Below, in pieces: positions 9,126-36,600 of a stretch of DNA of 41,305 bases. Numbering within the stretch: the first letter of the stretch is position 1; every line of letters starts with the position of its first letter. The notes under the pieces were generated by a model. The model was not told the origin of the DNA. It made no database searches and saw nothing but the letters and a program-made list of their open reading frames with translations. The position numbers were made by a program, and so were the translations under genes. Source of the DNA: Saprospiraceae bacterium (GTDB taxonomy: Bacteria > Bacteroidota > Bacteroidia > Chitinophagales > Saprospiraceae); NCBI GenBank assembly GCA_020628145.1, contig JAHDFN010000003.1, positions 1 to 41,305 of the forward strand, in the 5' to 3' direction.

Positions 9126-9719
9126 TTGGCTAAAAGATTCAAAAGGAACAATAACCGAAATCAGCGTGAAAAGCCCCAACACAGGATCAACTCTTATATC
9201 CGAATCCCTGAAATCCGTTTGGTTGGAGACAACATGGACAAGGTAAGTGAAGTCGCCGGAAGGACTATCGAATCCGGTATCTACAAAACCCGTGACGTAC
9301 AGGATTGGGCGATGAGGATGGAATTGGATTTGGTAGAAATCTCCCCAAAAGCCGATCCTCCCGTTTGCCGAATCATCGACTATAAGAAATTCCTTTATCA
9401 AAAGAAAAAGAAAGAAAAGGAACTCAAAGCCAAAACGGCAAAAACCGTCATTAAGGAAATCCGATTCGGACCGAATACCGACAAGCATGATTTCGACTTC
9501 AAACTCAAACATGCCATCGGTTTCCTGGAAGATGGTAACAAAGTGAAAGCTTTCGTTCAATTTAGAGGGCGTTCCATTGTTTTCAAGGAAAGAGGTGAAT
9601 TGTTATTATTGAATTTCATCAAGGAATTGGAAGAAATAGCTGCTGCCGAAGCCCTTCCCAGATTGGAGGGAAGAAGAATGTCAGTCGTATTACAACCGAA
9701 AAAGAAATCCAAGAAATAA
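9126..9719 (+). CDS. infC: Translation initiation factor IF-3, TTG start
   Basis: IF-3 binds the 30S subunit and checks start-codon pairing. The 197 residues contain the N-terminal domain ([18 protein letters not shown], then [20 protein letters not shown]) and the C-terminal domain ([19 protein letters not shown] to the Lys-rich end). The first codon consistent with the family N-terminus [10 protein letters not shown] is TTG at 9126, preceded by ATA; no in-frame ATG lies nearby upstream. A non-AUG start is typical of infC and in other bacteria lets IF-3 repress its own translation; that is likely here but unproven. Unusually, rpmI and rplT do not follow and thrS does not precede: the gene stands alone between clpC and the pigment locus, with its own terminator. 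Confidence 0.96.
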
Positions 9720-9737
9720 TATTTGGATAATGTATAT

Positions 9738-9773
9738 AAAAAAGGTGCTTCATTGGAATGAAGCACCTTTTTT
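9738..9773. terminator. Bidirectional terminator between infC and the ammonia-lyase gene
   Basis: A near-perfect inverted repeat with about 15-17 paired bases (AAAAAAGGTGCTTCA and its complement), flanked by A and T runs. It serves convergent transcripts from infC (plus) and the lyase (minus). Confidence 0.88.
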
Positions 9774-9803
9774 GTGTGTAGAAATGTAAACGCCCCCCTA
9801 AAG

Positions 9804-11345
9804 TCACCCAATCACTTTAGGGTTGTTTTCCATTAGGAATCGCTTCACGTTTGCAATCCTCCTATACAATGGTTTATCCGAAACTATCGTAGGAACATTT
9901 TCACGGATACTTTGATAGAATTCACTAGTGATGGAAGACAGTTCCTTCTCGACTTTCTTATAATCGACCAATTGTACCAAGGTCATACTGTGTATAGCCA
10001 AAACCTCAAAAGCGTTTTCAATAACCTTGGCCGTCATTACCGCAGAATTGGTCCCCATACTTACGATATCCTGATTATCATTATTATTCGGAATACTATG
10101 GATATACATCGGATTGGAAAGCATCTGATTTTCAGCAGTGGTAGATGTCGCCGTGAATTGTGCCCCCTGTAGTCCGTAATTGGTACCGAGTGTTCCCAGA
10201 TTGGCAAAAGGAGGAAATTTCCCATTCAACTTGGAGTGTAACATAAAATTCAACTGCCTTTCGGCCAACATCGTCAGTTTGGTCATGGTAATCCTCAACT
10301 TATCCATTTCCAAAGCCACATAGTCTCCATGAAAATTTCCACCATGATATACATTGCCCGCCTCTACGTCTATCACCGGGTTATCATTGACCGAATTCAA
10401 TTCATTTTCTATGATTTCCTTGCTGTAAAGGAAGCTGTCCCAAATCGGACCAAGAATCTGGGGCAAACAACGGATAGAATAATACTCCTGTACCTTATCC
10501 TCAAAAATCTGTTCTTCTTTTTCCTGATCATACAAATGATCCGCCCGTTTTCGGATTAGCTTACTGTCTCTCAGACAATAGGATAATGCCCTTGCAACTT
10601 CCATCTGCCCCTTATGAAGTTTAACCCGATTCAATTCATCGGAAAAATGATCATCGTAAGCTTCAACCATTTCCGTAAGGAGGGCTGTCATCAAGACAGA
10701 CCAATTGACTAATTTCCGACTCCTATTCAGGTTGATCAATCCGATACCGGTCATACAGGATGTCCCATTCATTAAGGCCAACCCTTCCCTCAGGTGTACT
10801 TTTAATGGTGTTATCCCCAGATGATCGAAGATTTCATTATCCTTATAGGATTTCCCCTTATACCTGACCTCGCCTTCTCCTATCAAGGCCAAAGCGAAAT
10901 GGGCCAATTGTACCAAATCACCACTGGCTCCTACTCCACCGTGGGCATATATGATCGGATATATTTCTTTATTGATAAAATCGCGGATGAGCAATACCAC
11001 TGAAGGATGGATGCCCGACTTAGCTTTTAGTAACGTATTCAATCGAGCCAGCATCATACTCCTTACCTGTAAATCGTCTAGGGGAGAACCCGAACCGGTG
11101 GCATGACTTCTAATCAGATTATATTGCAATTGCAGTTGTTGGGCATCATCTACCTTATATTGGGCCATGGGCCCGAATCCGGTATTAATACCATAAATCA
11201 CCTTCCTTTTTGAAAAATCCTTCAAAAAGGAAAAACACTCCTCTACCTTCGAAAGCGTAGCCGCATCGATTCCCATCTTTTCGTTACCGAAAAGGATGCT
11301 TTCCGCCTCATCAACCGAAAGGTGTCGTTCTACAATTGTTATCAT
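9804..11345 (-). CDS. Tyrosine ammonia-lyase (aromatic amino acid lyase family)
   Basis: This 513-residue enzyme belongs to the MIO-dependent lyases. ASG at 140-142 (in GGVGASGDLVQLAH) forms the MIO cofactor, and Tyr51 in VIYGINTGFGPMAQY is the catalytic tyrosine. The product with tyrosine would be 4-coumarate, the starter of flexirubin-type aryl polyenes. The selectivity loop NLIRSHATGSG (76-86) and blocks such as YDDHFSDELN, QEYYSIRC and GGNFHGDYVALEMDKL closely match, from memory, the Flavobacterium johnsoniae tyrosine ammonia-lyase. Histidine ammonia-lyase shares the Ser-His loop, but no hutU, hutI or hutG gene is nearby. It is transcribed divergently from the seven-gene pigment operon, with a TATCTTTG -7 element 30 bases upstream. 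Confidence 0.85.
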   Translation of the reverse strand: MITIVERHLSVDEAESILFGNEKMGIDAATLSKVEECFSFLKDFSKRKVIYGINTGFGPMAQYKVDDAQQLQLQYNLIRSHATGSGSPLDDLQVRSMMLARLNTLLKAKSGIHPSVVLLIRDFINKEIYPIIYAHGGVGASGDLVQLAHFALALIGEGEVRYKGKSYKDNEIFDHLGITPLKVHLREGLALMNGTSCMTGIGLINLNRSRKLVNWSVLMTALLTEMVEAYDDHFSDELNRVKLHKGQMEVARALSYCLRDSKLIRKRADHLYDQEKEEQIFEDKVQEYYSIRCLPQILGPIWDSFLYSKEIIENELNSVNDNPVIDVEAGNVYHGGNFHGDYVALEMDKLRITMTKLTMLAERQLNFMLHSKLNGKFPPFANLGTLGTNYGLQGAQFTATSTTAENQMLSNPMYIHSIPNNNDNQDIVSMGTNSAVMTAKVIENAFEVLAIHSMTLVQLVDYKKVEKELSSITSEFYQSIRENVPTIVSDKPLYRRIANVKRFLMENNPKVIG

Positions 11346-11374
11346 TGGATGGTTGTCAATTATTTAGCAGGGGG

Positions 11375-11382
11375 CAAAGATA
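11375..11382 (-). promoter_or_regulatory. -7 promoter element of the ammonia-lyase gene
   Basis: On the minus strand this reads TATCTTTG, an exact match to the Bacteroidota -7 consensus TAnnTTTG, 29 bases before the ATG. A TTTG lies upstream, but the spacing (about 14 bases) is short for a -33 box. The rest of the 206-bp divergent gap (11346-11551) should also hold the operon promoter; only weak matches, such as AATTTTTG near 11490, were seen. Confidence 0.55.
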
Positions 11383-11551
11383 ATCATATTATTACTCAAA
11401 TCCGATGTGTAATGTCTCTCTTCCCTCAATTAAATTCAGTGTAAAAATCGGCAAAAAATTACAGTTTTTCATACCTTGTAATATGAATTTTTGTCAATTG
11501 GGGAATTCCTTAGTGTAACCCCAATGGTACAATACCACATAACTGATTGAG

Positions 11552-12775
11552 ATGGAAGTTTATAAGACCGATGTATTAGTCATAGGGGCCGGCCCTTCCG
11601 GAGCGGTGGCGGCTTCCATTCTCGAAAAAAAGGGCTTGGACGTCCTTTTGGTTGAAAAAAAGAAATTTCCCAGATATGTCATAGGAGAAAGCCTGCTTCC
11701 ATCCTGTATGGAATCGCTTAAAGAGGCCGGTTTCCTTGAAGCCCTGCAAAAGGAAGAATTCCAACTCAAGATAGGTGCCCGGTTCATCCGGGATGACCAG
11801 GAGTGTCTATTCCGGTTTGAAGAACAATATACCGAAGGTTGGAGCTGGACCTGGCAGGTTCCCCGTGAACGATTCGATCAGGTGATGACGGATGAACTTG
11901 AAAAGAGAGGTGTCCGCATCCTTTTCGAACATGGTGTAACGGATATACAATTCAATGGAAGCACATCCAAGACTACCATTGAGGATAGAACCGGAAAAGT
12001 CCATCAAGTTGAAGCCAAATTCGTCATTGATGCCAGTGGTTACGGACGGGTATTACCCCGATTATTGGGTTTGGAAGCCTCATCCGATTTCCCGATGCGA
12101 CAATCCTTTTTCACTAGGATAAAAGATGAAAGAAGGCCGAAGAATCTGGAAGGAAAACAAGCGACATTTGTTGTTTTGGATCAACAGAACTGGATGTGGG
12201 TCATTCCTTTTTCCAATGGTATAACATCCGTAGGATTTGTCGGCGACCCGATTTTTTTCAAAGGCAATGACGAAACGGTCATGAGGCAAATGATTGAAGA
12301 TGTCTATCAGATGAAGGATAGATTCAGAGACATGGAACATGTGATGCCCCCTCAAACCATCAAGGGTTATGCGAGTGGTGTTACAAAATTATATGGCGAC
12401 GGCTTCGCCTTGGCCGGCAATAGTGCTGAATTCCTCGACCCTATTTTTTCATCCGGGGTGGCACTGGGCATCCTGACCGGACATAGGGCCGCAGAATTAG
12501 CTGCGATGCAACTCAAAGGGGAAAATGTAAATTGGGAAACGGATTTTGCAGATTATATCAATCAGGGTGTGGATACCTTCAGATCCTATGTAAGACATTG
12601 GTATAACGGTTCTATGCAATGTGCTTTTTTCACACCTACTGCCATCAATCAGAAGATCAAGAACCAGATTTGCTCGGTACTGGCAGGCTATGTCTGGGAC
12701 AAGTCCAATCCATATGTAGCCAAGCACGAAAAGGCCATGACCGTTCTTCAAAAAGTGATACATCTATATTCCTAA
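11552..12775 (+). CDS. Flavin-dependent halogenase-like oxidoreductase
   Basis: A 407-residue FAD enzyme with the dinucleotide-binding GAGPSG at 12-17, the PRYVIGESLLP motif (40-50) shared by flavin halogenases and geranylgeranyl-reductase relatives, and the halogenase hallmark WxWxIP as WMWVIP (214-219). Lys73 in KIGARF sits where phenol halogenases carry the lysine that relays hypochlorous acid. Many flexirubins are chlorinated on the aromatic ring, which fits a role on the coumarate-derived head group. The same family also contains non-halogenating monooxygenases and reductases, so the reaction is inferred. It is the first gene of the operon, divergent from the lyase, and is followed after six bases by the glycosyltransferase. 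Confidence 0.75.
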   Translation: MEVYKTDVLVIGAGPSGAVAASILEKKGLDVLLVEKKKFPRYVIGESLLPSCMESLKEAGFLEALQKEEFQLKIGARFIRDDQECLFRFEEQYTEGWSWTWQVPRERFDQVMTDELEKRGVRILFEHGVTDIQFNGSTSKTTIEDRTGKVHQVEAKFVIDASGYGRVLPRLLGLEASSDFPMRQSFFTRIKDERRPKNLEGKQATFVVLDQQNWMWVIPFSNGITSVGFVGDPIFFKGNDETVMRQMIEDVYQMKDRFRDMEHVMPPQTIKGYASGVTKLYGDGFALAGNSAEFLDPIFSSGVALGILTGHRAAELAAMQLKGENVNWETDFADYINQGVDTFRSYVRHWYNGSMQCAFFTPTAINQKIKNQICSVLAGYVWDKSNPYVAKHEKAMTVLQKVIHLYS

Positions 12776-12781
12776 ACCTCC

Positions 12782-13993
12782 ATGAAATCCACAGGAAAAT
12801 CCGACCCAAGATTCGAGGAATGGAAATGTTGTGTCCTCATTCCGACTTATAATAATGATTCCACTTTGGAGGAGGTTATTCGAGGTGTCATGCAATATAC
12901 CCACAATGTTATTGTCATGAATGACGGCTGCACGGATAATACCGCTTCCATATTATCCAAGTATAAGGATGAAATCCATGTCCATACCTTCGAACAAAAC
13001 CAAGGAAAAGGGGCGGCCCTGATGAAAGGATTTGAGTTGGCCTTGGAACAAGGATACCAATATCTGATTTCCATCGATTCCGATGGTCAACATTATCCCG
13101 ATGATCTACCTGTTTTTCTGGACACTTTAGGAGAGCAACCTGACTCCCTTATCGTAGGAGCGAGGAATATGGAACAGAATTCCGTTCCGGGGGGAAGCAG
13201 TTTCGGTCATAAGTTTTCTAATTTCTGGTATAGATTGGAAACCGGAATCGATTTGCCCGACACCCAATCGGGGTATCGACTCTACCCTATCCGGTTATTG
13301 AAAGGCATCCGGTTTTTTACCGGCAAATATGAATTCGAAATCGAAATTCTGGTAAGGGCTGCATGGCGGGATGTGAATGTGACTTATTGTCCGATAAAAG
13401 TATATTATCCTCCTCAGGAAGAAAGGGTCAGCCACTTCCGACCGTACAAGGATTTCGCCCGGATTTCCGTTTTGAATACCTTTCTGGTCATTATTACTTT
13501 TCTTTACATCAAACCCCGGAATCTGATAAGGGCTTTGCAAAAAAAAAAATTAAGGGAACACATTAAGGGTTTTATAGAAAAATACCTTTTACATGAAACG
13601 GAATCCAATTTAGCGAAATCCGCTTCAGTGGGACTCGGTATTTTCTTTGCACTGAGTCCCTTTTGGGGATTCCATTTATGGTTGGCCTTGCTTTTCGCCC
13701 ATATTTTAAAACTCAATAAAATCATTGCCGGCGTTGCCAGCAATGTTAGTATCCCGCCTTTGATTCCTTTTATTATTTTTGCAAGCTATAAACTAGGTAG
13801 TTGGGTTACACCGAATGCTGTGGAATTGGAATTCAATAAAAACATTACCATTGAAACCATCCATCAGAATCTCATCCAATATGTTACGGGCAGTTTCATA
13901 CTGGGTATTATTATGGCATTTATCATCGGTACGCTGACCTATATTACATTAACCGTATTTTATAAAAAAGGTAATCTGAGTGTACCTCGTTAA
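12782..13993 (+). CDS. Family 2 glycosyltransferase fused to DUF2062
   Basis: Residues 15-230 form a GT-A glycosyltransferase of the dolichyl-phosphate-mannose-synthase type, with VLIPTYNN, NDGCTDNT, the metal-binding ISIDSDGQH and DTQSGYRLYP. A membrane stretch (about 225-245) is followed by a DUF2062 region (about 265-395) with several hydrophobic helices. The protein is predicted to be an inner-membrane enzyme with a cytosolic catalytic face. Homologues recur in Bacteroidota aryl-polyene and flexirubin clusters, but their substrate is not established to my knowledge. Its stop overlaps the next start (TAATG). Confidence 0.85.
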   Translation: MKSTGKSDPRFEEWKCCVLIPTYNNDSTLEEVIRGVMQYTHNVIVMNDGCTDNTASILSKYKDEIHVHTFEQNQGKGAALMKGFELALEQGYQYLISIDSDGQHYPDDLPVFLDTLGEQPDSLIVGARNMEQNSVPGGSSFGHKFSNFWYRLETGIDLPDTQSGYRLYPIRLLKGIRFFTGKYEFEIEILVRAAWRDVNVTYCPIKVYYPPQEERVSHFRPYKDFARISVLNTFLVIITFLYIKPRNLIRALQKKKLREHIKGFIEKYLLHETESNLAKSASVGLGIFFALSPFWGFHLWLALLFAHILKLNKIIAGVASNVSIPPLIPFIIFASYKLGSWVTPNAVELEFNKNITIETIHQNLIQYVTGSFILGIIMAFIIGTLTYITLTVFYKKGNLSVPR

Positions 13994-16900
13994 TGAGTGG
14001 GATTTTCATACATATCTATCAATATTTCAGTGAGCGAAAAAACCTGTTCCGGCTTTTTCTTTTATTGTTCCTGCTCATCGGGCTGGGACTGGCATCCCAA
14101 TTACGGATGGAAGAAGATATTTCACGTGTCATTCCTGCCGATCCCAAGGTAAAACGGCTCAATACCGTTTTCCAGAATTCCAAGTTTTCTGAAAAAATCA
14201 TCATCAATCTTTCTTTGAAAGATACAAGCCGGACTCCGGATGCCGATGTCCTCGGTCTTTTCGGAGATACGTTGCATGATATTGTAAAAGAAAGGCTTTA
14301 TCCGGATTACCTGAGTGATATTACTTTCCGCTTCGACGATGATAAGATGATGGAGATGTATGATGTCTTTTATGACAATCTACCCTTGTTCCTCAATGAT
14401 GGGGATTACCGGAAAATGGAATCGGAGTTGAATCGGGAAAGCATCCGGGAAAAACTGAAGGGGAACCTGAAAACCTTATTTTCCCCGGCCGGAATGGTTT
14501 TCAAGAAATTCATCCTCAGAGACCCTATGGGATGGACGCCTTTGGCTTTGAAAAAATTGGAATCCCTACAACTAGATGAAAATTTCGAATTGGATAACAG
14601 TTATATTGTAACCAAGGATAAAAGGCATTTGCTTTTATTTATGGATGCGGCCCACCCTCCCAATGAAACCGGTAAAAACAGTGAACTGATTTCACAATTG
14701 GATTTTATTCTCGATAGCCTGGATCAAGCCCGACCGGATATCCATGCGGAATATTTCGGTTCGGTACCGGTCGCCGTAGGTAATGCCAATCAAATCAAAA
14801 AAGATATTCATTTGACGGTTACGATTGCCGTTATTTGTTTGCTTCTGCTCATTAGTTTTTTCTTTAGGCGGCCGAGCATCTTTTTTCTGATAATCATTCC
14901 TATTGTTTTCGGAGGTATAACTTCTTTGGCGATTTTGTTTTTAATCCGCCAACAGGTTTCTGCCATTGCATTGGGTATCGGTTCTGTCTTATTGGGAATC
15001 GCATTGGATTTTTCATTCCATTTGTTTACCCATTACCGAAACAGACCGGATACGATTGAAGTATTGAAGGATGTTTCCCTTCCTATTATCATGAGTTGTC
15101 TGACGACGGCCTGTGCATTTCTTTGCCTCATGTTCGTTCATTCGGAAGCCTTGTTCGATTTAGGATTATTTGCTGCCATCAGTATTATCGGTTCTGCATT
15201 ATTTGCACTGATCATCCTTCCTCATTTTTTTAATAAAAAAACCGTTACGCCCACCTCCAATTTCCTAGACCAAATCGCAGCTTATCCATTTGATCGGAGT
15301 AAGGTTTTAAAATGGATTTTATTGGGCGCAAGTATTTTATTTTTATTTACTTTCGGAAAAACGGGATTCGATGCCGATTTGAATAAAATGAATTTTGTTT
15401 CTCCTGAATTACAACGAGCGGAAAATAATCTGGATGCGATTAATGATTATAAACTCAAATCGGTTTTTCTGATTGCAAGTGGAAGTGATTTAAATGAAGC
15501 CTTGGAATATACGGAAGCCAAAACCCAAGAGGTAGAAGCCTTGAAAACAAAAGGCATTGTAAAAAAATCTTCCGGTTTAGCGAATGTTCTTTTATCTCAA
15601 AAGAGACAAAACGAAAAAATAAAGAAATGGAAAAATTTCTGGAATCCTGAAAGAAAGGATTCTATTATACAAATATTGAAAGAAGAAGGAACTCCTTTAA
15701 AGTTCAAAGAAAATACCTTTAAGACTTTTTATACTACCCTGGATAAGGATTTTTCCTACATGGACACTTCTTCGGTAAATACCATCATACAATTATTCGC
15801 CAAGGATTTCATTACCCGAAAAAAGGAAATGACAACGGTCATTACGACATTAAAGGTCAAGGAAGAAGACAAAGATGCTGTTTATGCCGGCATTGAAGAT
15901 TCGGACAACTTGATTGTATTTGATCGTTCTTATCTCTCTACCCGCTTCCTAGACATTTTACAATCCGACTTTAATCTTTTAGTCGGACTTTCCATGTTGG
16001 TCGTATTTTTAATTCTTTTGATTTCCTTTGGAAGAATAGAGCTGAGCATTATTGCTTTCCTACCAATGTTATTGGGTTGGTTATGGACATTGGGTATAAT
16101 GGGAATACTAGGATTGGATTTCAATATTTTCAATATTATTATTTCGACATTTATTTTCGGTCTAGGTATTGATTATTCTATTTTTATTATGAACGGATTA
16201 ATCCAACACCATAAAACCGGGCATTACAATTTAAAATCCTATAAGACCTCTATCTTATTATCCGGACTCACAACTATTATCGGAATGGGGGTTTTGATTT
16301 TTGCACAACACCCTGCCCTTAGATCTATTGCTTCCCTTTCCATTATAGGTATAATTTCGGTAGTCATCATTGCCTTCACTTTAGAGCCCGCACTATTCCG
16401 CTGGTTGGTGAGTAAAAAAGGGAAGAAAAGAAAGGAACCGATGCTCCTCAAGGATATTCTTATTTCTCTATTCACCTTCTTTTTATTTTTAGGTGGGTGC
16501 ATTTTCCTAACGATTCTAATTCCAATACTGAAAATATTACCGATTGATTCCAAAAAGAAAAAATACTTTTTCAGCAGGCGTTTACAGAATCTTTGTAGCC
16601 TGATCAATACCGTAGTCCCCAGCATCAAAAAAGAAATCCTCAACCCATTTAATGAATCTTTTGAAAAACCTGCCGTCATTGTTTCCAACCATCAATCCCA
16701 TATTGATTTAACGGCCTTATTAATGTTGCATCCTAAAATGATCGTCCTCACCAATGATTGGGTTTGGAACAATCCCTTTTATGGTTTCATTGTAAAATAT
16801 GCAGATTTTTTTCCGGTTACGGAAGGGCATGAAAAAAGCCTTCCTTTAATGAAACAAAAAATGGAAGACGGATATTCCATCCTTGTTTTCCCCGAAGGCA

Positions 16901-17706
16901 CCCGTTCCCCCGATTGCAAAATAAAACGCTTTAAAAAAGGAGCATTTTTATTAGCCCAAGAATTAAAGGCGGATATTGTCCCCGTTCTTTTACACGGTGC
17001 AGGTCATTGTGTAAATAAAGGCGAAAATTATATCAAGGATGGAAAAGTAACCATTCAAATCATGAAAAGAATCCCTCATGGCTCTACTCCATATGGAAAC
17101 ACATATCAGGAAATGACAAAAGGTGTCATGAATAACATGAGGGAAGAATTCGAACATCTTCGTGAAAAAGTCGAGACTCCGGATTATTTCGAAAGTAAAT
17201 TAATTAAGAATTATATTTATAGGGGTAAGGATATTTTCAATAAAGCTAAAAAAGAAATCAGAGCGAATGAAAATTACAAATACTGGAATGAACATATTCC
17301 ACGTAAATGTAAGATTTCGGATTTAGGTTGTGGCATTGGAGCCAGAGCTTATATGTTGTCTTTTGTCAGCGAACAAAGAGAAATCCATTGTTGGGATTCG
17401 AAGAAAGAAAATATGATCCTAGCGGAAAACAATATTTCAAAACATAATGGTATTCATTTCCATTATACAGATATGGATAATTTCCTTTCCCGGAAAACCG
17501 ATGTTTTAATTATAGATCCTGAAGAGTTCAACAGAAAGGATTGGACCTGGGAATCCATCCTAAACCATATGGAAGACCACTTGGATTCGAATGGTTTTAT
17601 CCTAAGCAAATCAGATAGACAAAACATTCAATTGCCGGAAGGTTTAATCGGAGAAAAATTATCCGGTGGATTGATTAAAATCAGGAAAACAAGAAATAAC
17701 GGATGA
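13993..17706 (+). CDS. Trifunctional MMPL exporter / lysophospholipid-type acyltransferase / SAM methyltransferase
   Basis: The 1237 residues contain three modules. Residues 1-815 are an RND/MMPL transporter with a duplicated plan: a first helix at about 17-35, a periplasmic loop, a helix bundle at 275-420, then a second helix, loop and bundle (about 440-800). Residues about 840-1060 are a PlsC-type acyltransferase with HQSHID at 900-905 and FPEGTRS around 967-972. Residues about 1090-1237 are a class I methyltransferase with the SAM motif DLGCGIG (1110-1116). The fusion is a known architecture in flexirubin-type loci and would couple acylation and methylation of a pigment or lipid to its export across the inner membrane. 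It starts within the preceding stop (TAATG) and overlaps the next gene (ATGA). Confidence 0.88.
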   Translation: MSGIFIHIYQYFSERKNLFRLFLLLFLLIGLGLASQLRMEEDISRVIPADPKVKRLNTVFQNSKFSEKIIINLSLKDTSRTPDADVLGLFGDTLHDIVKERLYPDYLSDITFRFDDDKMMEMYDVFYDNLPLFLNDGDYRKMESELNRESIREKLKGNLKTLFSPAGMVFKKFILRDPMGWTPLALKKLESLQLDENFELDNSYIVTKDKRHLLLFMDAAHPPNETGKNSELISQLDFILDSLDQARPDIHAEYFGSVPVAVGNANQIKKDIHLTVTIAVICLLLLISFFFRRPSIFFLIIIPIVFGGITSLAILFLIRQQVSAIALGIGSVLLGIALDFSFHLFTHYRNRPDTIEVLKDVSLPIIMSCLTTACAFLCLMFVHSEALFDLGLFAAISIIGSALFALIILPHFFNKKTVTPTSNFLDQIAAYPFDRSKVLKWILLGASILFLFTFGKTGFDADLNKMNFVSPELQRAENNLDAINDYKLKSVFLIASGSDLNEALEYTEAKTQEVEALKTKGIVKKSSGLANVLLSQKRQNEKIKKWKNFWNPERKDSIIQILKEEGTPLKFKENTFKTFYTTLDKDFSYMDTSSVNTIIQLFAKDFITRKKEMTTVITTLKVKEEDKDAVYAGIEDSDNLIVFDRSYLSTRFLDILQSDFNLLVGLSMLVVFLILLISFGRIELSIIAFLPMLLGWLWTLGIMGILGLDFNIFNIIISTFIFGLGIDYSIFIMNGLIQHHKTGHYNLKSYKTSILLSGLTTIIGMGVLIFAQHPALRSIASLSIIGIISVVIIAFTLEPALFRWLVSKKGKKRKEPMLLKDILISLFTFFLFLGGCIFLTILIPILKILPIDSKKKKYFFSRRLQNLCSLINTVVPSIKKEILNPFNESFEKPAVIVSNHQSHIDLTALLMLHPKMIVLTNDWVWNNPFYGFIVKYADFFPVTEGHEKSLPLMKQKMEDGYSILVFPEGTRSPDCKIKRFKKGAFLLAQELKADIVPVLLHGAGHCVNKGENYIKDGKVTIQIMKRIPHGSTPYGNTYQEMTKGVMNNMREEFEHLREKVETPDYFESKLIKNYIYRGKDIFNKAKKEIRANENYKYWNEHIPRKCKISDLGCGIGARAYMLSFVSEQREIHCWDSKKENMILAENNISKHNGIHFHYTDMDNFLSRKTDVLIIDPEEFNRKDWTWESILNHMEDHLDSNGFILSKSDRQNIQLPEGLIGEKLSGGLIKIRKTRNNG

Positions 17707-19235
17707 AAAGATATAAGGCTCAATACGATGTCATTATCATAGGTAGCGGACTAGGAGGTTTACAATGTGCCTATATTCTAGGAGAGGCCGGTTATAGCGT
17801 TTGTGTTTTGGAAAAAAACAAACAGACCGGTGGCAACCTTCAAACATTCGTAAGAGACAAATGTATTTTCGATACGGGTGTGCATTATATCGGCGGATTG
17901 GATGAAGGACAGAATCTTTATCAATATTTCAAATATTTCGGTTTGATGGACAAACTGAAATTAAGAAAAATGGATACGGCATTCGACCATATCACTTTCG
18001 AGGGAGATGAAAACTCCTATTATCACCAACAAACCTATCCTGCATTTATAGAGTCTCTTTCCGAGCAATTTCCGGAAGAAAGAAAAAATATCGAAAAATA
18101 TTGTGAAGGCATATTGGGAGCTTGCAAATCATTTCCATTATACAATTTGGAAGATAAGGATCCGATGGAAGACGAAGAAAAATTTTTCCGCTACCTGACC
18201 ATCGGTGCCAAGGATTTTATCGATGCTTCCACACAAAATCAAAAATTAAGAAATGTACTGGCCGGCTCCAATCCCTTGTATGCCGGCATTGCGGATAAAA
18301 CACCCTTATATTCCCATGCTTTAACCGTAAACACTTACATCGACAGTTCCTACCGTTGTGTTGACGGGGGTTCTCAAATCTGCCGGATACTTACAAAAGG
18401 CATTCGTAAATTCGGTGGAGAAATATTAAAATACAAGGATGTAAAAAAACTGATTTTCGAAAATGGAAAATTAACCAAAGCCGAAACCGCCGAAGGAGAA
18501 CAATTTGAAGGAAAATATTTTATTTCCAATATTCATCCTCACCTGACTTTGGATTTAATGAAAGATCATAAAATCCGAAAATCATATGTCAGGCGAATCC
18601 GTTCCTTGGGTAATAGTACTTCTTGTTTCAATTTACATTTGGTTTTGAAAAAAGACAGCTTTCCTTATCTCAATTATAATTATTATCATTACAACAACAC
18701 CAATATTTGGAATTATGATAATTACACCGAAGCCACTTGGCCGGAGGGGTATATGTTGTCCACTCCCGCTTCTTCAAAATCGGAAAAATATGCCGACTGC
18801 CTAACAATGATGTCATATATGCGATATGACGAAGTGGAACAATGGGCCCATACTTTCAACACGGTGGCCAACGAACAATCCCGTGGAGAAGATTACGAAG
18901 CATTCAAAATGGATCGGGCTGAAAAATGCATTGTGGAATTGGAAAAAAAGTTTCCGAATATCCGTTCCTGCATTCATTCCATACATACCACAACTCCATT
19001 GTCTTTCAGGGATTACATCGGTGCTTCGGACGGTTCCATGTATGGTATTTTAAAAGATTATAAAGATCCGCTACGATCTTTTATTTCTCCCAAAACAAAA
19101 GTGGAAAACCTTTTCCTGACCGGACAGAATCTGAACATGCACGGAATTCTCGGAGTAACCATCGGTTCCATCATGACCTGTGCCGAATTTTTGAGTCGAA
19201 CGGAAATATTGAATAAAATCAAACGTGCACAATAA
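17703..19235 (+). CDS. Phytoene desaturase/retinol saturase-like FAD oxidoreductase
   Basis: A 510-residue flavoprotein with N-terminal IIIGSGLGGLQCAYILGEAG and the second FAD-contact segment VLEKNKQTGGNLQTF. The C-terminal LFLTGQNLNMHGILGVTIGS is the FAD-closing motif of CrtI/RetSat-type enzymes. Members act on polyene chains (desaturation, saturation or isomerisation), so a role in adjusting double bonds of an aryl polyene is plausible. No carotenoid genes such as crtB are present. It overlaps the preceding gene by ATGA, and the next gene begins immediately after its stop. Confidence 0.85.
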   Translation: MKRYKAQYDVIIIGSGLGGLQCAYILGEAGYSVCVLEKNKQTGGNLQTFVRDKCIFDTGVHYIGGLDEGQNLYQYFKYFGLMDKLKLRKMDTAFDHITFEGDENSYYHQQTYPAFIESLSEQFPEERKNIEKYCEGILGACKSFPLYNLEDKDPMEDEEKFFRYLTIGAKDFIDASTQNQKLRNVLAGSNPLYAGIADKTPLYSHALTVNTYIDSSYRCVDGGSQICRILTKGIRKFGGEILKYKDVKKLIFENGKLTKAETAEGEQFEGKYFISNIHPHLTLDLMKDHKIRKSYVRRIRSLGNSTSCFNLHLVLKKDSFPYLNYNYYHYNNTNIWNYDNYTEATWPEGYMLSTPASSKSEKYADCLTMMSYMRYDEVEQWAHTFNTVANEQSRGEDYEAFKMDRAEKCIVELEKKFPNIRSCIHSIHTTTPLSFRDYIGASDGSMYGILKDYKDPLRSFISPKTKVENLFLTGQNLNMHGILGVTIGSIMTCAEFLSRTEILNKIKRAQ

Positions 19236-20936
19236 ATGCCCGGACGTTTAAAAAAAACATTCAAGTGGCTGGGATATTTATTCGTTTTTTTCATTATCCT
19301 ATTGCTCATCCTCGGTATTTTATTCCTTTGGGCCATTAAGATAAATCCGCCTGAAGTGGAGGACATGAGTACGATAGAAATCCCAAGTGTGAAAGTGGAC
19401 GAGGAATTCCATTATTGGAAAAATTGTTGGCTGAAAAAAAACAAACACGGCATTTGGGAAACCTACCTGGAAGGCAGTCCTTTTGAAATTGGCGTAGCCA
19501 ATGGCAAAATGACAAGCGAACTGACCTACCAGTTGGAAGTTTCATTCATTAATGAAATGAAAAAATTCGTCCCTTCCGAATCCTTCCTACATTATCTGAA
19601 ATATTTTATCGGTTGGTTCAATCGGAAAATGCCGGAATATATTTTGGAAGAATACCAACAGGAAATTTACGGTGCGTCCCTTTCTGCCAATAACGAATAT
19701 GATTTTGTCGGCCCTAAATACCAAAGGGTTTTGAATTATCATGGTGCCCACGACATAGGACATGCATTAAAAAATATGGGAACGGTCGGTTGTACTTCCT
19801 TTTCCACTTGGAATACCCGTTCGGAAGATAGCACTTTATTAATCGGTCGGAATTTTGATTTTTATGTGGGTGACGGATTTTCAAAAAACAAAGTCGTAAG
19901 TTTCATTCGACCGGAGAAAGGAAATCCGTTTATGATGATCGCCTGGGCCGGAATGAGTGGTGTCGTTTCCGGGATGAATATCCACGGATTGACGATTACA
20001 TTAAATGCCGCCCCTTCGGAAATTCCCATGCACGGCAAGACTCCCATTTCCATTCTGGCCCGTGAGATATTGCAATATGCATCCAATATAGAAGAGGCTT
20101 ATGCAATAGCACAAAAGAGAGAAACTTTTGTTTCTGAAACCCTAATGATAGGCTCCGCAGTCGATAATGCTACCGCCCTTATTGAAAAATCCACTGAAAA
20201 AACGGTTTTGTATCATTCGGAGTTAAATGACCACATCATTTGTTCCAACCATTACCAATCCGAAGCTTTCAAAGATTATGAATTGAATACCGAACACATA
20301 AAAAACAGTCATTCCGATTATAGATATAAAAGAATGATTGAATTGATGAATCAATATCCGGCTATGAATGCCGAGGCCGTCGCAGCCATTCTTCGGGACA
20401 AGGAAGGAATCGGCGGGCAGAAAATCGGAATGGGCAATGAAAAATCAATCAACCAACTGATTGCCCATCATGCCATTATTTTCAAACCGCACGAAAGGAT
20501 CGTCTGGGTCTCCACTCCACCCTTTATGTTGGGAGAATTCATTGCCTATGACCTCAATCAGGTATTCAGTGAATTTCCGGGTATGAAGGAAAACAGGGAA
20601 ATCACATTGGATAGTTTGGAAATAGCAGAAGATCCTTTTTTATATTCGGAGGAATTCAATAATTTTAAGACCTTTAGGCAACTGAAGGAACAGGTTGAAA
20701 AAGCCATCGAAAGCGAAGGGAAAATAAAATTGGAAGAAAATACAATCCGGACCTTTATACAATCCAACCCTGATTATTATATGGTGTATTCTTTATCCGG
20801 TGAATATTATCTTTCTCAAAAGGAATGCGAAAAGGCATTGGAATTTTATCAACAGGCTTTGGAAAAGGAAATAACGACTTTGACTGAAAAAGAAGAATTT
20901 TCGGAAACCATTTCAGCCGGGTGTACATTGGAATAA
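19236..20936 (+). CDS. Membrane-anchored C45-family Ntn hydrolase/acyltransferase with C-terminal TPR
   Basis: A 566-residue protein with an N-terminal membrane anchor (about 10-33). A C45/acyl-CoA:6-APA acyltransferase-like domain follows, in which Gly185-Cys186-Thr187 (MGTVGCTSF) matches the autoprocessing site and nucleophile of penicillin acyltransferase. A C-terminal helical region (about 500-566) contains a tetratricopeptide-like pair. C45-type genes recur in flexirubin-type clusters. Acyl transfer or amide/ester hydrolysis on the pigment, probably on the periplasmic face, is inferred and the substrate unknown. If autocleavage occurs before Cys186 the enzyme would be a heterodimer with a tethered alpha chain. 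It abuts the preceding stop and overlaps the next start by one base. Confidence 0.8.
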   Translation: MPGRLKKTFKWLGYLFVFFIILLLILGILFLWAIKINPPEVEDMSTIEIPSVKVDEEFHYWKNCWLKKNKHGIWETYLEGSPFEIGVANGKMTSELTYQLEVSFINEMKKFVPSESFLHYLKYFIGWFNRKMPEYILEEYQQEIYGASLSANNEYDFVGPKYQRVLNYHGAHDIGHALKNMGTVGCTSFSTWNTRSEDSTLLIGRNFDFYVGDGFSKNKVVSFIRPEKGNPFMMIAWAGMSGVVSGMNIHGLTITLNAAPSEIPMHGKTPISILAREILQYASNIEEAYAIAQKRETFVSETLMIGSAVDNATALIEKSTEKTVLYHSELNDHIICSNHYQSEAFKDYELNTEHIKNSHSDYRYKRMIELMNQYPAMNAEAVAAILRDKEGIGGQKIGMGNEKSINQLIAHHAIIFKPHERIVWVSTPPFMLGEFIAYDLNQVFSEFPGMKENREITLDSLEIAEDPFLYSEEFNNFKTFRQLKEQVEKAIESEGKIKLEENTIRTFIQSNPDYYMVYSLSGEYYLSQKECEKALEFYQQALEKEITTLTEKEEFSETISAGCTLE

Positions 20937-22099
20937 TGACTACGAATAATATAAACTTGAAACAGGAAATTTACGACGACATAAGGCCTTATCGGGATGA
21001 TGAAGTAGAGGAAGCCATGCAGCGGCTCTCCAAGGATTCTCTTTTTCTGAAAGCCATTCAATATATTTTTCCCGATAAAGATGAATCAGAAATGCAGTCA
21101 TTTTTATCGGGCATCAAAACCATTTATGACTTCCAAGGTAAAATCATGTACAAAGTCATCCAATACGTTTTGAATACCAGTTCGGACGGAGCTACTTTTC
21201 ATGGAATTGACAACCTGAATCCGGACACTCCTTATCTTTTCATTTCCAATCATCGGGATATTTTTTTCGATGCCGCCTTGTTACAATATTATTTATTTTC
21301 GACTCGATTCCCCACATCACAAATTTCCTTCGGAAAGAATCTGATGCTCAATGACACTATAGTTGATTTCGGAAAAATAAATAAAATGTTCACCGTCCAT
21401 AGGGAAGGGAAGACAGCTAGGGAAATGTACCAACATTCCAAGAACCTTTCCGATTATATTCGGCAGATCCTTACCGAAACAAAAGAATCGATTTGGATTG
21501 CCCAAAGGAACGGACGCACCAAAGACGGTATTGATGACACCCAAACCGGATTACTCCAAATGCTGGCCGTGAGCCAAAGGAAAAAAAACCTGACCGAAGC
21601 TTTACTGCCTTTGAATATTATTCCAATTGCCATCTCATATGAATTCGAACCTTGCGACAATTTGAAAGTCCGAGAAAATTATTTGAAAAGATCCGGCCCT
21701 TATCAAAAAGCGGAAGGAGAAGATTTCAAAAGCATCCTTAATGGAATAGTAGAAAACAAAGGCCGCATACATATGCATCTTTGCGACCCGATGAATGAAT
21801 TCATCAGGGATTTAAATCCGGATGAAAATCATCACCATCAAATTGAAGCTATACGACAGGAAATGAATAAAAGAATTATTTCCGGTTATCGTTGTTGGAC
21901 TTTTAATTATGTAGCAGCAGACATCATTGAAAACAAAACCGATTACACCCAATATTATTTACCAGAAGATAAAATCCGTTTTTACGATTTCATAAAAAAC
22001 AGATTGAATAAGATAGAAGGAAAAAACCCGGAGATGGAAGACATGCTCATCCGATTATATGCCAATCCTGTTTTACGAAAAAAGGAAATTACCGGATAA
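20936..22099 (+). CDS. PlsC-like glycerol-3-phosphate/1-acylglycerol-3-phosphate acyltransferase
   Basis: The start at ATG 20936 (MTTNNINLK) is chosen because it overlaps the preceding stop as TAATG, like its neighbours; an in-frame ATG exists five codons earlier. The 387-residue protein resembles the lysophosphatidate acyltransferase superfamily. FISNHRDIFFDAALLQ contains the catalytic His, with five residues to Asp instead of the canonical four. A later basic segment (IWIAQRNGRTKDG) sits where the EGTRS phosphate-binding motif lies. It may esterify a lipid or the pigment. It is the second acyltransferase of the operon, besides the one in the MMPL fusion. Confidence 0.8.
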   Translation: MTTNNINLKQEIYDDIRPYRDDEVEEAMQRLSKDSLFLKAIQYIFPDKDESEMQSFLSGIKTIYDFQGKIMYKVIQYVLNTSSDGATFHGIDNLNPDTPYLFISNHRDIFFDAALLQYYLFSTRFPTSQISFGKNLMLNDTIVDFGKINKMFTVHREGKTAREMYQHSKNLSDYIRQILTETKESIWIAQRNGRTKDGIDDTQTGLLQMLAVSQRKKNLTEALLPLNIIPIAISYEFEPCDNLKVRENYLKRSGPYQKAEGEDFKSILNGIVENKGRIHMHLCDPMNEFIRDLNPDENHHHQIEAIRQEMNKRIISGYRCWTFNYVAADIIENKTDYTQYYLPEDKIRFYDFIKNRLNKIEGKNPEMEDMLIRLYANPVLRKKEITG

Positions 22100-23388
22100 T
22101 GTTCATTCCTGAAATAGAAAAATCAAGTAGAAAAAAAATAAAAACCTTCCAAGAAAAAAAACTCAGGGAAGCACTCTCCTATTTGGAAAGGCACTCTCCT
22201 TTTTATTCCGAATTATTTAAAAAAGAAAAAACCAACATTTCTGAAATCAAGACACTGGAAGACCTTGTAAAAATTCCGGTCACGACCAAGGAAATGTTAC
22301 AAAAAAGAAATGAGGATTTCATTTGTGTTCCCAAAAATAAAATCGTCGATTTCGTCACCACTTCCGGTACATTGGGTTTACCCGTTACTTTCGCCCTGAC
22401 GGAAAACGACCTGAAAAGACTGGCTTATAATGAATACATTTCCTTCATCTGTGCAGACGGGAGCGAAGACGACATTTACCAATTGACTACGACTATTGAC
22501 AGGAGATTCATGGCCGGACTCGCTTATTTCTTAGGTGTTCGTAAATTGGGAGCCGGTATCGTCAGGGTCGGATCGGGATTACCACAACTACAATGGGAAA
22601 CCATAGAACGGATTCAACCGAATGCATTAATCGTGGTTCCTTCTTTTTTATTAAAATTAATCGACTACGCCGAAAAAAATAATATAAATTATAAAAACAG
22701 TCCGATAAAAAAGGCCATTTGCATCGGAGAACCTTTACGCAATTCGGATTTCTCCTTGAATACCCTAGGAAAAAGAATCAAGGAAAAATGGGACATTGAT
22801 TTATTTTCGACCTATGCTTCCACAGAAATGGAAACAGCGTTTACCGAATGCAAAGCGGGACAAGGGGGGCATCATCATCCCGAACTAATTATAGTGGAAT
22901 TATTAGATGAAAACAATAATGTCGTCAAGGAAGGAGAACAGGGAGAAGTGACCATCACTACACTTGGCATAGAAGGTATGCCTTTACTCCGATTTAAAAC
23001 GGGAGACATATGCCATGCTCATCATGAGGCGTGTCCTTGCGGCAGGAACACCCTGCGACTCGGGCCGATTATCGGACGTACACAGCAGATGATAAAATTC
23101 AAAGGTACGACTTTGTATCCTCCGGCTATTTTCGATGCCATCCATGCCATGCCGGGCATCGGGAATTATATTGTCGAAGTATATAAAAACGAAATCGAAA
23201 CGGATGAGATTTTAATTCATGTTGAAAACCAAAAAAACAATTCCGATTTCAAAAAAAACCTACAACTCCACTTAAAATCAAAATTAAGGGTAACCCCTAA
23301 AATAGAATTGCATCCTGAAAATTCACTCCTTCCGAAAATATTCAGAAAGGACAGTAGAAAACCGATTCGGTTTATTGATAAAAGATAG
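22099..23388 (+). CDS. PaaK-like adenylate-forming ligase
   Basis: A 429-residue member of the phenylacetate-CoA ligase branch of the ANL superfamily. The phosphate loop is VTTSGTLGLPV (about 86-96). The YASTEM adenine motif, GDICHAHHEACPCGR with its zinc-type cysteines, and the GRTQQMIKFKG hinge follow. It would activate an aromatic acid as the adenylate and pass it to CoA or to a carrier protein. With a tyrosine ammonia-lyase in the locus, 4-coumarate is the natural candidate, which makes this the probable starter-loading enzyme. No carrier-protein gene is in the window. It is the last operon gene and starts inside the previous stop (TAATG). Confidence 0.85.
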   Translation: MFIPEIEKSSRKKIKTFQEKKLREALSYLERHSPFYSELFKKEKTNISEIKTLEDLVKIPVTTKEMLQKRNEDFICVPKNKIVDFVTTSGTLGLPVTFALTENDLKRLAYNEYISFICADGSEDDIYQLTTTIDRRFMAGLAYFLGVRKLGAGIVRVGSGLPQLQWETIERIQPNALIVVPSFLLKLIDYAEKNNINYKNSPIKKAICIGEPLRNSDFSLNTLGKRIKEKWDIDLFSTYASTEMETAFTECKAGQGGHHHPELIIVELLDENNNVVKEGEQGEVTITTLGIEGMPLLRFKTGDICHAHHEACPCGRNTLRLGPIIGRTQQMIKFKGTTLYPPAIFDAIHAMPGIGNYIVEVYKNEIETDEILIHVENQKNNSDFKKNLQLHLKSKLRVTPKIELHPENSLLPKIFRKDSRKPIRFIDKR

Positions 23389-23422
23389 GAAAGGTAACAA
23401 CATGTTCTAAGTATAAGACATT

Positions 23423-23479
23423 ATTTATCGAAGAAGAGTAACATCTCCTTTATACATTATTTCTTCTCCATCGATAAAT
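23423..23479 (+). terminator. Dyad-symmetric hairpin downstream of the pigment operon
   Basis: ATTTATCGA (23423-23431) pairs with TCGATAAAT (23471-23479). After a three-base bulge a further six pairs (AGAAGA/TCTTCT) form. It lies 35 bases past the ligase stop. There is no T tract, so it may be an RNA-stabilising 3' end or a factor-dependent terminator rather than an intrinsic one. Confidence 0.4.
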
Positions 23480-23521
23480 GCTATATTAATTAAATAGACA
23501 GAAATTCCCGGGTTCATCGGT

Positions 23522-23752
23522 ATGGAAATTTCGGATAAAAAAGAGACAGGTTTTGGAAAACACTTCTTTCGAATTCATGAAAAAAAATTCGGAGAATAAT
23601 CCGACAATAAAAAATCATATGACAATTTTATCCGGAAGGGAAAATCAGGAGAAGACATTCATAAAGCCACCGAAGCAATACATCTAAAAAATCAAGAACT
23701 AGCAGAAGGCTTTTTTACTGAAAATGAAAATACCGACCGTTATTTCAAGTAG
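23522..23752 (+). pseudogene. Possible broken small ORF in the 23.4-23.9 kb gap
   Basis: From ATG 23522 a frame of 76 codons is interrupted once by TAA (26th codon) and then runs 50 more codons to TAGTAG. Both parts have a coherent, hydrophilic, Lys/Glu-rich composition; the second has no start codon of its own. It may be a decayed small protein gene or chance. The product is unrecognised. Apart from this, the hairpin and the promoter, nothing is seen in 23389-23874. Confidence 0.25.
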
Positions 23753-23836
23753 TAGATTTTTTCGAATCCACCTTTATCCTAATCACATATAATAATTACA
23801 GTATCGGAAAAGACAAGCTATTAAACTATAAGTTGT

Positions 23837-33611: not shown

Positions 33612-36600
33612 TTATCTATGAATCTGAACAAATCCGTCAATCTTCTTAGTTGTCGGCTGTCCGTTTTCATCTACAGCTTCATAACTCAGGATATAGAAGT
33701 AAGTTCCATCAGGTAATGGCTTACCATCCCAAGTACCATCCCAGTTATTCTGATAATCATCTACCAGATAAACTTGGTTACCCCAACGGTTGAAGATACA
33801 TAGGTTATTCTCAGGGAAGTTCTCCAACCCTTCGATTACGAATAGATCATTCACATCATCACCATTTGGTGAGAATCCGTTGAAGATGACCAGATCATCA
33901 CATATCACATCCACATAGACTGTGGCTTCATCACATCCAACTTCATTACAGATAATGTAAGTGAAGCTATCCGTTTCACCACAGAAGTCCGGATTAGGCG
34001 TATAGATGATTGAGTCATTATCAGTAATAATAACCGTACCGTTCATTGGCTGATCATTTATCATGATGTCAGTCAAATCACAGAATAAGGTATCGTTCGC
34101 ATCAACTACACCGTAGGTGATATCCGAGCCAATCGTGATAGTACCCAGGGTATCATTCACCGCTATCGGAGCAATACAATCCTCCGTTACCGTAATGATA
34201 TAGATAGTCGTATCACATTCGTTCGTTGTTGTATCACAAACTACGATACATGCCGTATCCTGACCAGGACTGAATCCTTCGAATTCAACTATCGGACCAG
34301 GATCTAGTTCCAATTCGGTTATTACCACACTGGAACCACTGGCATCTTCACAATAGTTGAAGATAGTATCAGGATTCATCACACATGGATCCAAGTCGAA
34401 CATCGGAGCGAAGATTTCATCAACCGTCAAGTCTAACAAGACAGTATCAACATCTCCACATGTAGGATTAGGCATCACATCCACAATGAATATCGTGGTA
34501 TCGCAAGTATTCATCATCGTATCGCAAACTACGATACATGCCGTATCCTGACCCACAGTTATTCCTTCGAATGAAACCGTGTCATTGGTTACCTCATTCA
34601 AGGTAACGATAACATTGGTGCCGGAATCATCCTCACAGTAGTTGAAGATGGTATCCAAACTGTTCAAGCAGCTATCCAATGCCAGTTCGTAATCAAGGAT
34701 GTCTCCCTCCATGATTGTAAGATTGATGGTATCCAATCCACAATTTTCAGGAATCACCGTGATATAGAACTTAGTCGTATCGCATAATCCTAAGTCATCG
34801 CAGATAATCACACATGCAGTATCCGTACCTGTGGAATTATCCCCTACATAAGTTACACAGTAGTTCACATCATCGATGATGAAGTCGGCGTAATCATTAT
34901 CATTATCCAACAAGTTGGTAATGCTTTCAACATTTCCAGGCAACTGGAATGTATCCAAGCACAAGGTAACCATGTCATCTACAAAGATGGTATCGACAAT
35001 CTCTTCATTCGGGATACACAATACGTTCACTGTCATGGTATCCATACAACCCGTCAAGGTATCAGTGAATATCAATTCATGTGTTCCGATAGGAAGATCT
35101 ATACTTGAACCTTGAGCAACACCCAAGCTGTCCACATCACATGCTCCGAATGTAGCAGGATCATAGGTTGTACCGAGTAGATTATCTACAACAGTGTAAC
35201 CTCCTACTTCAGCTGCCGGTATCGGCAAGCAGTAGGCCAGTGTAGCACTACAATCGGATAATTGAGCATAAGCCATATCAGGTGTGAACAAGGTATCACA
35301 TACCGGTGTGATAGATACGATGATACAAGTAGTATCCGGCAACCCTGTCGCATCAATACCTTCGATGCAGATGGTATCTACAAACGAACCTATGGTTACA
35401 TCAGAATTATAAGTGATACATCCTGTAACAGGATCCAATGTCCAAGAACCATATGTACTGGTAGTATTGGCATCCAACAGGTTGTAATCAATTGGATTAT
35501 TAATATCCAATTCACTGTTATCGAAACAGGCGGTTATTGAATCCTCTGTAGGTAGTGTCACGAAAATCGTATCATTCATCGTAGGATCGAAGATATTCAC
35601 AATGATGATAGTCGTATCCATCAACCCTGTTCCATCCTCAGTACCATAGATAAAGATAGTATCTACTCCGTTACCTTCAGTATCTCCTGCATCATAAGTG
35701 ATACATCCATCTGTATCATTCAAATTCCAAGTACCGAAGTCACTCATTCCATCATCGGTAGCATCCAATACGAATGTTATCTGACCTGTCAAATCATCCT
35801 GTACAAAGCAACCGGTATCATCAGAACCGAAGGTTGGCACATTGATTATTACCGTATCCTGAGATGGGATAATGGTCACATCAATCAATAATGTATCACA
35901 CAATCCATCACTGTTACAAGCAGAGATACAAACCTCATCGATATCGATACCGATGTTGTTCAGATCATTAGCTGTGTAGGTCAAGCATCCATCAGGACCT
36001 ACTGTATAGGTTCCGATAGTCGGATCAGGAGTAGAACACAATGTGTAATTAATCGGACCTCCATTCGCAAACCCTGGCTCGAATTCTGTAAAGCAAACGA
36101 TATCCGTTACGGTTTCTCCTTCCTGAACCACTATTTCAGTACTATCCGGAGTAGGAATGATATTGACAATGATTGTCGTCTCATCAACAAGATTGTTATC
36201 ATCCATTGCAGTAATGGTAATCATATCCATATTGAATCCGACATTACCGAATGCCTCATAATCGATACACTCATTATTTGTCGTGATTGTTCCGGTTGTG
36301 TTACCATTCACATCCGTTGCTACGAATGTATATGTAATAGTACCGGACAATGGCGGCGTATCCAATCCTGAGAAGCACGCTGCATTCTCTGTCAAAGTGT
36401 TTGCAGGCACATCGATAGTTAATGTATCGAATTCAATGATTACGTCAATGATATTCACAACAACAACTGTAGTACCCGTGATATTACCATTACCATCATC
36501 TCCTATGATTGTAATGTAATCCACTGCATTTCCAATTACACCATTTGCCGTGTATTCTAAACATCCGGTCGTTGTATTCAATACCCATGAACCATAGGTA

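Follow-up and report, generated by a model that had tools for sequence, protein, structure and literature searches.

Eight genes between positions 9804 and 23388 of a 41,305-base stretch of Saprospiraceae bacterium DNA (the window, which is the first part of a 48,570-bp contig, JAHDFN010000003.1) are probably the starter, tailoring and export end of a single flexirubin-type aryl-polyene (flx) cluster, some 24 kb long with 23 genes. The cluster would occupy the gap between infC and rpmI, with its polyketide core on two other contigs of the same genome, a break just past flxY, and a product made without dar genes. It is a known kind of cluster, ordinary but in an unusual state. The host genome (G000) is a 4.3 Mb draft in 340 contigs, 91.9% complete; other G numbers below are comparison genomes and C numbers are contigs, C30 and C268 being from the host.

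The flx genes of the window

The eight open reading frames (ORFs) of the block were confirmed at their coordinates, each with the domains named here. They are listed with the features at either end:

9126..9719, + strand: infC, translation initiation factor IF-3 (IF3_N and IF3_C); marks the left edge of the site, with 84 bp between it and flxA; next to flxA in congener G002 too
9735..9780 (limits approximate), + strand: terminator-like hairpin between infC and flxA; fold of 9715–9800 at -28.1 kcal/mol, z -6.08 against 200 shuffles
9804..11345, - strand: flxA, tyrosine ammonia-lyase; NF053541 824.7 bits (cut-off 700), Lyase_aromatic 529 bits, ASG at 140
11552..12775, + strand: halogenase-like flavin adenine dinucleotide (FAD) enzyme; Trp_halogenase 85 bits, FAD-binding, GAGPSG and WMWVIP motifs
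12782..13993, + strand: flxT-like GT2-DUF2062 protein; both domains, counterpart in canonical clusters
13993..17706, + strand: flxU-like MMPL-acyltransferase-methyltransferase fusion; domains, canonical counterpart, HQSHID acyltransferase motif
17703..19235, + strand: flxV-like CrtI-like oxidoreductase; domain, canonical counterpart
19236..20936, + strand: flxW-like C45 family (C45/AAT) acyltransferase/hydrolase; NF040521 208.2 bits (cut-off 85), canonical counterpart
20921..22099, + strand: PlsC-type acyltransferase; PF01553 27.4 bits (cut-off 23), no counterpart in the two canonical clusters
22099..23388, + strand: flxY, 4-coumarate-CoA ligase; NF053551 707.3 bits (cut-off 520), AMP-binding
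23389..23832, no strand: break, the stretch after flxY where G004 has the last core gene; no match to the C268 end beyond chance words of 12–16 bp, and right-hand genes not on the G006 infC contig

The FlxA and FlxY models have curated equivalog cut-offs, both of which were passed, as was that of the C45 model; for the halogenase and CrtI proteins no specific NCBIfam cut-off was passed among the 25 best matches. The ASG of FlxA we take to be the MIO triad, and the GAGPSG and WMWVIP motifs are presumably those ascribed to the family of halogenase-like FAD enzymes. Seven of the eight genes, all except the PlsC-type one, have counterparts in both canonical clusters compared (Flavobacterium sp. 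SLB02 and Chitinophaga rupis), the halogenase-like protein at 45–48% identity to the Flavobacterium and Chitinophaga genes.

The initial annotation, made from the window alone, had recognized a flexirubin-type locus without its polyketide core, and had noted housekeeping genes or an unrelated surface protein on both sides. When 40 flx and dar reference proteins were compared with the whole 48,570-bp contig (tblastn, E <= 1e-4), no ketosynthase, FlxB, acyl carrier protein (ACP), LolA2/LolB2, DarA or DarB was found, and the only matches were to these eight genes, a ninth match (to a CrtI paralogue query) falling on the CrtI-like gene again. The flanks are also as described, with a ClpC-type chaperone and infC on the left and, on the right past flxY, a Por_Secre_tail protein, DUF4249, a pseudouridine synthase, LepA, a subtilase, PorP/SprF and two very large reading frames. 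The last two (about 2,600 and 2,430 amino acids (aa); 33612–41305 and on to contig position 48570) lie beside PorP/SprF, resemble each other and proteins of G013, and have an odd tetranucleotide profile. Scans for promoters (51 sites, 45.4 expected) and terminators (21, 15.8 expected) were not used as evidence.

The polyketide core on two other contigs

A ketosynthase search of the same genome, of the kind that the initial annotation had proposed, led to the core, 15 genes on C30 and C268. C30 carries FlxB (388.2 bits, cut-off 340), a ketosynthase and an ACP, an acyltransferase of the HtrB type, a protein of 143 aa, a thioesterase, another ketosynthase, a protein of 216 aa, another ACP, and a third ketosynthase truncated at the contig end. 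The remainder of this third ketosynthase is on the 3,938-bp contig C268, with about 106 nearly identical bases of overlap between the two contigs. Beyond it are a ketosynthase-like protein (cysteine motif not found), a polysaccharide deacetylase, LolA2 (216.4 bits, cut-off 125), LolB2 (116 bits, cut-off 60), and, as the last core gene, a FabA-like protein (29.5 bits, cut-off 23) whose ApeI-like match of 26.9 bits is below the cut-off of 28.5. Catalytic motifs are intact among those proteins checked. By sequence the core looks complete, as does the polyene half as far as tested. With FlxA and FlxY past curated cut-offs in the window, and FlxB, LolA2 and LolB2 present elsewhere in the genome, the flexirubin-type assignment holds.

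A probable single insertion site

The rpmI (L35) and rplT (L20) genes start 238 bp past flxB on C30. In congeners G003 and G006, which have no FlxA match above cut-off, infC is followed directly by rpmI-rplT; the rpmI leader is common to these two genomes and to the flxB-rpmI gap of C30, and the clpC and parA sides are both collinear with one 226,821-bp contig of G006, the one that carries infC-rpmI. Since the infC and rpmI edges match genes that are adjacent in these flxA-less congeners, C30 and the window contig appear to hold two edges of one cluster. The infC-flxA edge recurs in congener G002. The order would then be infC, flxA (reversed), hal-flxT-flxU-flxV-flxW-plsC-flxY, the break, and then the core, oriented towards flxY and with flxB at its outer end next to rpmI-rplT. 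It is not claimed that the cluster interrupts an operon; rpmI has its own shared leader, and there is a hairpin after infC. In three further congener drafts (G005, G007, and G008), contigs end no more than about 200 bp past infC, just where G000 and G002 carry the cluster.

The halves are joined in congener G004, where flxY-plsC-flxW-flxV and the core face each other tail to tail across a gap of 9 bp. A tRNA-Asn lies past flxB and other genes lie past flxA. The remaining genes, flxA-hal-flxT-flxU, are on a second contig, which runs out in the first part of flxV, and the two contigs likely join into one cluster. Between the divergent flxU end and flxV there is a 179-aa frame (C259:22969-23508), which by eye we take to be reductase-like. 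One contig of G004 is identical, base for base, to the record JAHDHJ010000147.1 (from a Saprospiraceae metagenome-assembled genome). The idea of a cluster split into two loci, one of the two explanations first offered for the missing core, thus survives in part: the core does lie elsewhere in the genome, but the two loci are probably not independent, judging from edges that fit one site between infC and rpmI and from the arrangement in G004.

Several observations weigh against the reading given at the outset. The G004 cluster is itself on two contigs whose join is imperfect, as the flxU end on the first differs and an additional ORF precedes flxV there, and it lies at another site than infC/rpmI. 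In the host genome, C268 extends 147 bp beyond the last core gene without meeting the window contig, and no read or contig joins the halves; at 92% completeness, dar genes could also have been missed. Finally, infC and rpmI are neighbours in G003, G006, G009, and G013, whereas the stretches read of G010, G011, G012, G014, G029, G043, and G054 do not show them side by side. As a rule for the whole family the adjacency is therefore false, so the one-site argument rests on the congeners, and the reading as a whole, though still probable, is slightly less secure for it.

The break past flxY

The cluster looks as if it has been broken between flxY and the last core gene, either by a long-range rearrangement or by a false contig join. 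No overlap of at least 15 exact bases was found between the ends of C30 or C268 and the window contig, which otherwise share only 12–16 bp words. To the right of flxY, the composition up to 33.4 kb matches that of the left side and the genome (correlation 0.954); from 33.4 to 48.6 kb, in the genes for large proteins, the correlation is only 0.442. Apart from a 29% match to the Por_Secre_tail protein, the right-hand window genes were not found on the 226,821-bp infC-rpmI contig of G006, so a local rearrangement near infC is unsupported. In congener G002 about 10 kb past the core (C425) hold unrelated genes at a guanine-cytosine (GC) content of 0.295 and may be foreign DNA at that same convergent end.

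There is about an even chance that the rearrangement is real, an inversion, translocation or large insertion having parted flxY from the core to leave two distant operons that still make one product. The genome-like composition of the right-hand genes up to 33.4 kb argues for this, as do the unrelated genes past the core of G002 and the occurrence of flx genes on several long contigs in G013, G043, and G054. The assemblies are draft contigs only, however, with no read support shown for the junction, and the low-GC stretch of G002 holds different genes, so that the two breaks are not the same event. A false join just past flxY, with the cluster actually intact between infC and rpmI, has a substantial though slightly less than even chance: the two edges fit one site, the halves are joined in G004, and the genome is in 340 contigs. 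What speaks against it is that the 147 bp of C268 past the core do not reach flxY, unlike the 9-bp gap of G004, and that no repeat was identified at the junction (looked for only in the word comparison of the C268 end with the window).

Dar genes and the expected product

Flexirubin proper is a polyene ester of dialkylresorcinol and calls for DarA and DarB, neither of which was found in G000 as searched. The DarB query was a Flavobacterium protein (NF053539, 672 bits, cut-off 550), and the DarA query was its neighbour, assigned by position, with no NCBIfam model naming it. Among 14 genomes, DarB was matched in eight (E <= 1e-20) and not in G000, G002, G004, G012, G050 (57% complete), or G064; DarA was matched in nine (E <= 1e-10) and not in G000, G002, G004, G012, or G064 (Solitalea longa). 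Nor was there any DarB in G000 at 1e-60 with NF053539. Both genes, first remarked on as missing from the window, were thus not found in the whole assembly either.

An order-wide sample of 396 genomes was searched for FlxA (E <= 1e-150) and DarB (E <= 1e-60), which occurred in 80 and 76 genomes, respectively, and together in 69, leaving 11 with FlxA alone and seven with DarB alone; 78 of the 80 FlxA genomes are above cut-off, and G133 and G194 are partial. Among the FlxA-positive genomes, five of 10 in the family have no DarB match, compared with six of 70 in the rest of the order sample (Fisher p = 0.003, without correction for relatedness). Of the six FlxA-only genomes outside the family, two are below 80% completeness and several are split into hundreds of contigs. 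G306 has no DarB match, yet G390, with an identical FlxA, has one, so some of these absences may be gaps.

From the genes, motifs, positions and flanks described above we infer the reactions, the product and the order of events. FlxA would deaminate tyrosine to 4-coumarate and FlxY would convert this to coumaroyl-CoA, going by their families; the ketosynthases, FlxB and the dehydratase, again by family, would extend it on ACP to a 4-hydroxyphenyl polyene, with ring decoration by the halogenase-like enzyme and a methyltransferase possible. LolA2, LolB2 and the MMPL protein may then bring the polyene to the outer membrane. Because DarA and DarB were not found, it is probably not esterified to a dialkylresorcinol; it may be free or on another lipid alcohol, for which FlxW, the PlsC-type enzyme and the FlxU acyltransferase domain are candidates. 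The product is likely an aryl polyene without a dialkylresorcinol cap.

That the dar genes are instead in the unassembled part of the genome, and the product an ordinary flexirubin, seems unlikely. The genome is only about 92% complete, and dar genes lie apart from the polyene cluster in C. rupis and, according to the portion of Schoner et al. (2014; PMC3992019) seen, in C. pinensis. Against this, they were not found either in G002 (82% complete), G004 (88%), or G012 (98%), although orthologues in other flx genomes match the queries at 49–64% (DarB) and 39–58% (DarA), and the lack of DarB is concentrated in the family as noted above.

A FlxW-like gene can occur even in genomes without a DarB match: it is present in G000, G004, G012, and G265 and partly in G002, but the stretches read of G118 and G253 and the cut contig of G306 showed none. 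Among 44 stretches the PlsC-type gene occurs only in G000 and G004 (tblastn 1e-3). As a general replacement for dar it was rejected, with none in the stretches read of the dar-negative G012, G265, G118, and G253; within this genus such a replacement is possible. A broader proposal is doubtful: that the pathway of the genus is a dar-free aryl-polyene unit that moves between sites (between infC and rpmI here, at least for the infC edge also in G002, and next to a tRNA-Asn in G004), breaks where flxY and the core converge, and has recruited a PlsC-type acyltransferase that attaches the polyene to a different lipid alcohol.

It is very improbable that the window genes work without the core to make a different, non-polyene coumaroyl lipid, the other explanation first offered. 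In its favour, the genes form a self-contained set on a single contig, and coumaroyl-CoA would follow from FlxA and FlxY alone, both activities having been seen in vitro for C. pinensis (excerpt of PMC3992019). Such a lipid is not needed, however, with a complete-looking core with intact motifs in the same genome, and in G004 the core is beside flxY.

The flx genes in related genomes

FlxA is above cut-off in three of nine genomes of the genus (G000, G002, and G004), and above or near it in 13 genomes of the wider family (Saprospiraceae, Lewinellaceae, and Haliscomenobacteraceae). In a FlxA tree of 100 rows the three genus sequences form one clade with support of 100; its placement is unresolved, with a long-branch warning, and therefore no donor is claimed. 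Within the clade G002 pairs with G004 (support 93), though the infC edge is common to G000 and G002.

The flx genes of G013 are spread over five contigs of 97 to 296 kb, and in G013, G043, and G054 flx and dar genes are scattered over several long contigs, so loose clustering is not unique to the window. At the other extreme, G390 has flxA to flxY together, and G029, G306, and G406 keep flxA with most of the core. G118 and G253 have a divergent cluster, with flxA, flxB, flxY and ketosynthase-like genes close together and DarB not found; flxT, flxU, flxV, and flxW were not recognized in the 60 kb read.

Comparison with known clusters

Polyene and dar genes that lie apart, and aryl polyenes that become flexirubins only with dar genes, have already been published. 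The excerpts of Schoner et al. (2014; PMC3992019) define flxA-Y, show activity of FlxA and FlxY in vitro, and propose that FlxW joins polyene and dialkylresorcinol; according to those of Kumagai et al. (2018; PMC5932025), the presence of dar proteins turns aryl polyenes into flexirubins, and the dar genes lack the biased distribution seen for polyene genes. In the portions seen of the literature on flexirubins or aryl polyenes and Saprospiraceae, neither this cluster nor its site or break was described. Descriptions of Saprospiraceae, Lewinellaceae, and Haliscomenobacteraceae say that they do not produce flexirubin-type pigments (PMC5167729, in part), whereas 13 genomes of this wider family carry FlxA above or near its cut-off.

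What appears in a draft genome as half a cluster can be the edge of a whole one, recognizable by the host genes that border it on either side. Should the dar-free flx pathways be borne out, they would matter for the role of FlxW, since FlxW-like genes occur where DarB was not found, and interest would turn to the alcohol, if any, that carries the polyene.

Set beside the flx clusters of F. johnsoniae and C. pinensis (through SLB02 and C. rupis), seven of the eight window genes and the C30 core genes have counterparts in both references, and FlxA, FlxB, FlxY, LolA2 and LolB2 are past the NCBIfam flexirubin cut-offs. Here, however, the flxT-flxY block has the reverse orientation with respect to the core, flxA is at the end far from flxB, a PlsC-type gene lies between flxW and flxY, the cluster is broken in the assembly, and DarA/DarB were not found. 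Xanthomonadin and the E. coli aryl polyene (APE) are similar products whose starters differ from tyrosine-derived coumarate, whereas the starter here would be coumarate made from tyrosine through FlxA/FlxY; the last core gene also falls short of the ApeI-like cut-off (26.9 against 28.5 bits). What they would have in common with the pathway described here is an outer-membrane aryl polyene without a dialkylresorcinol (PMC5932025, in the part seen).

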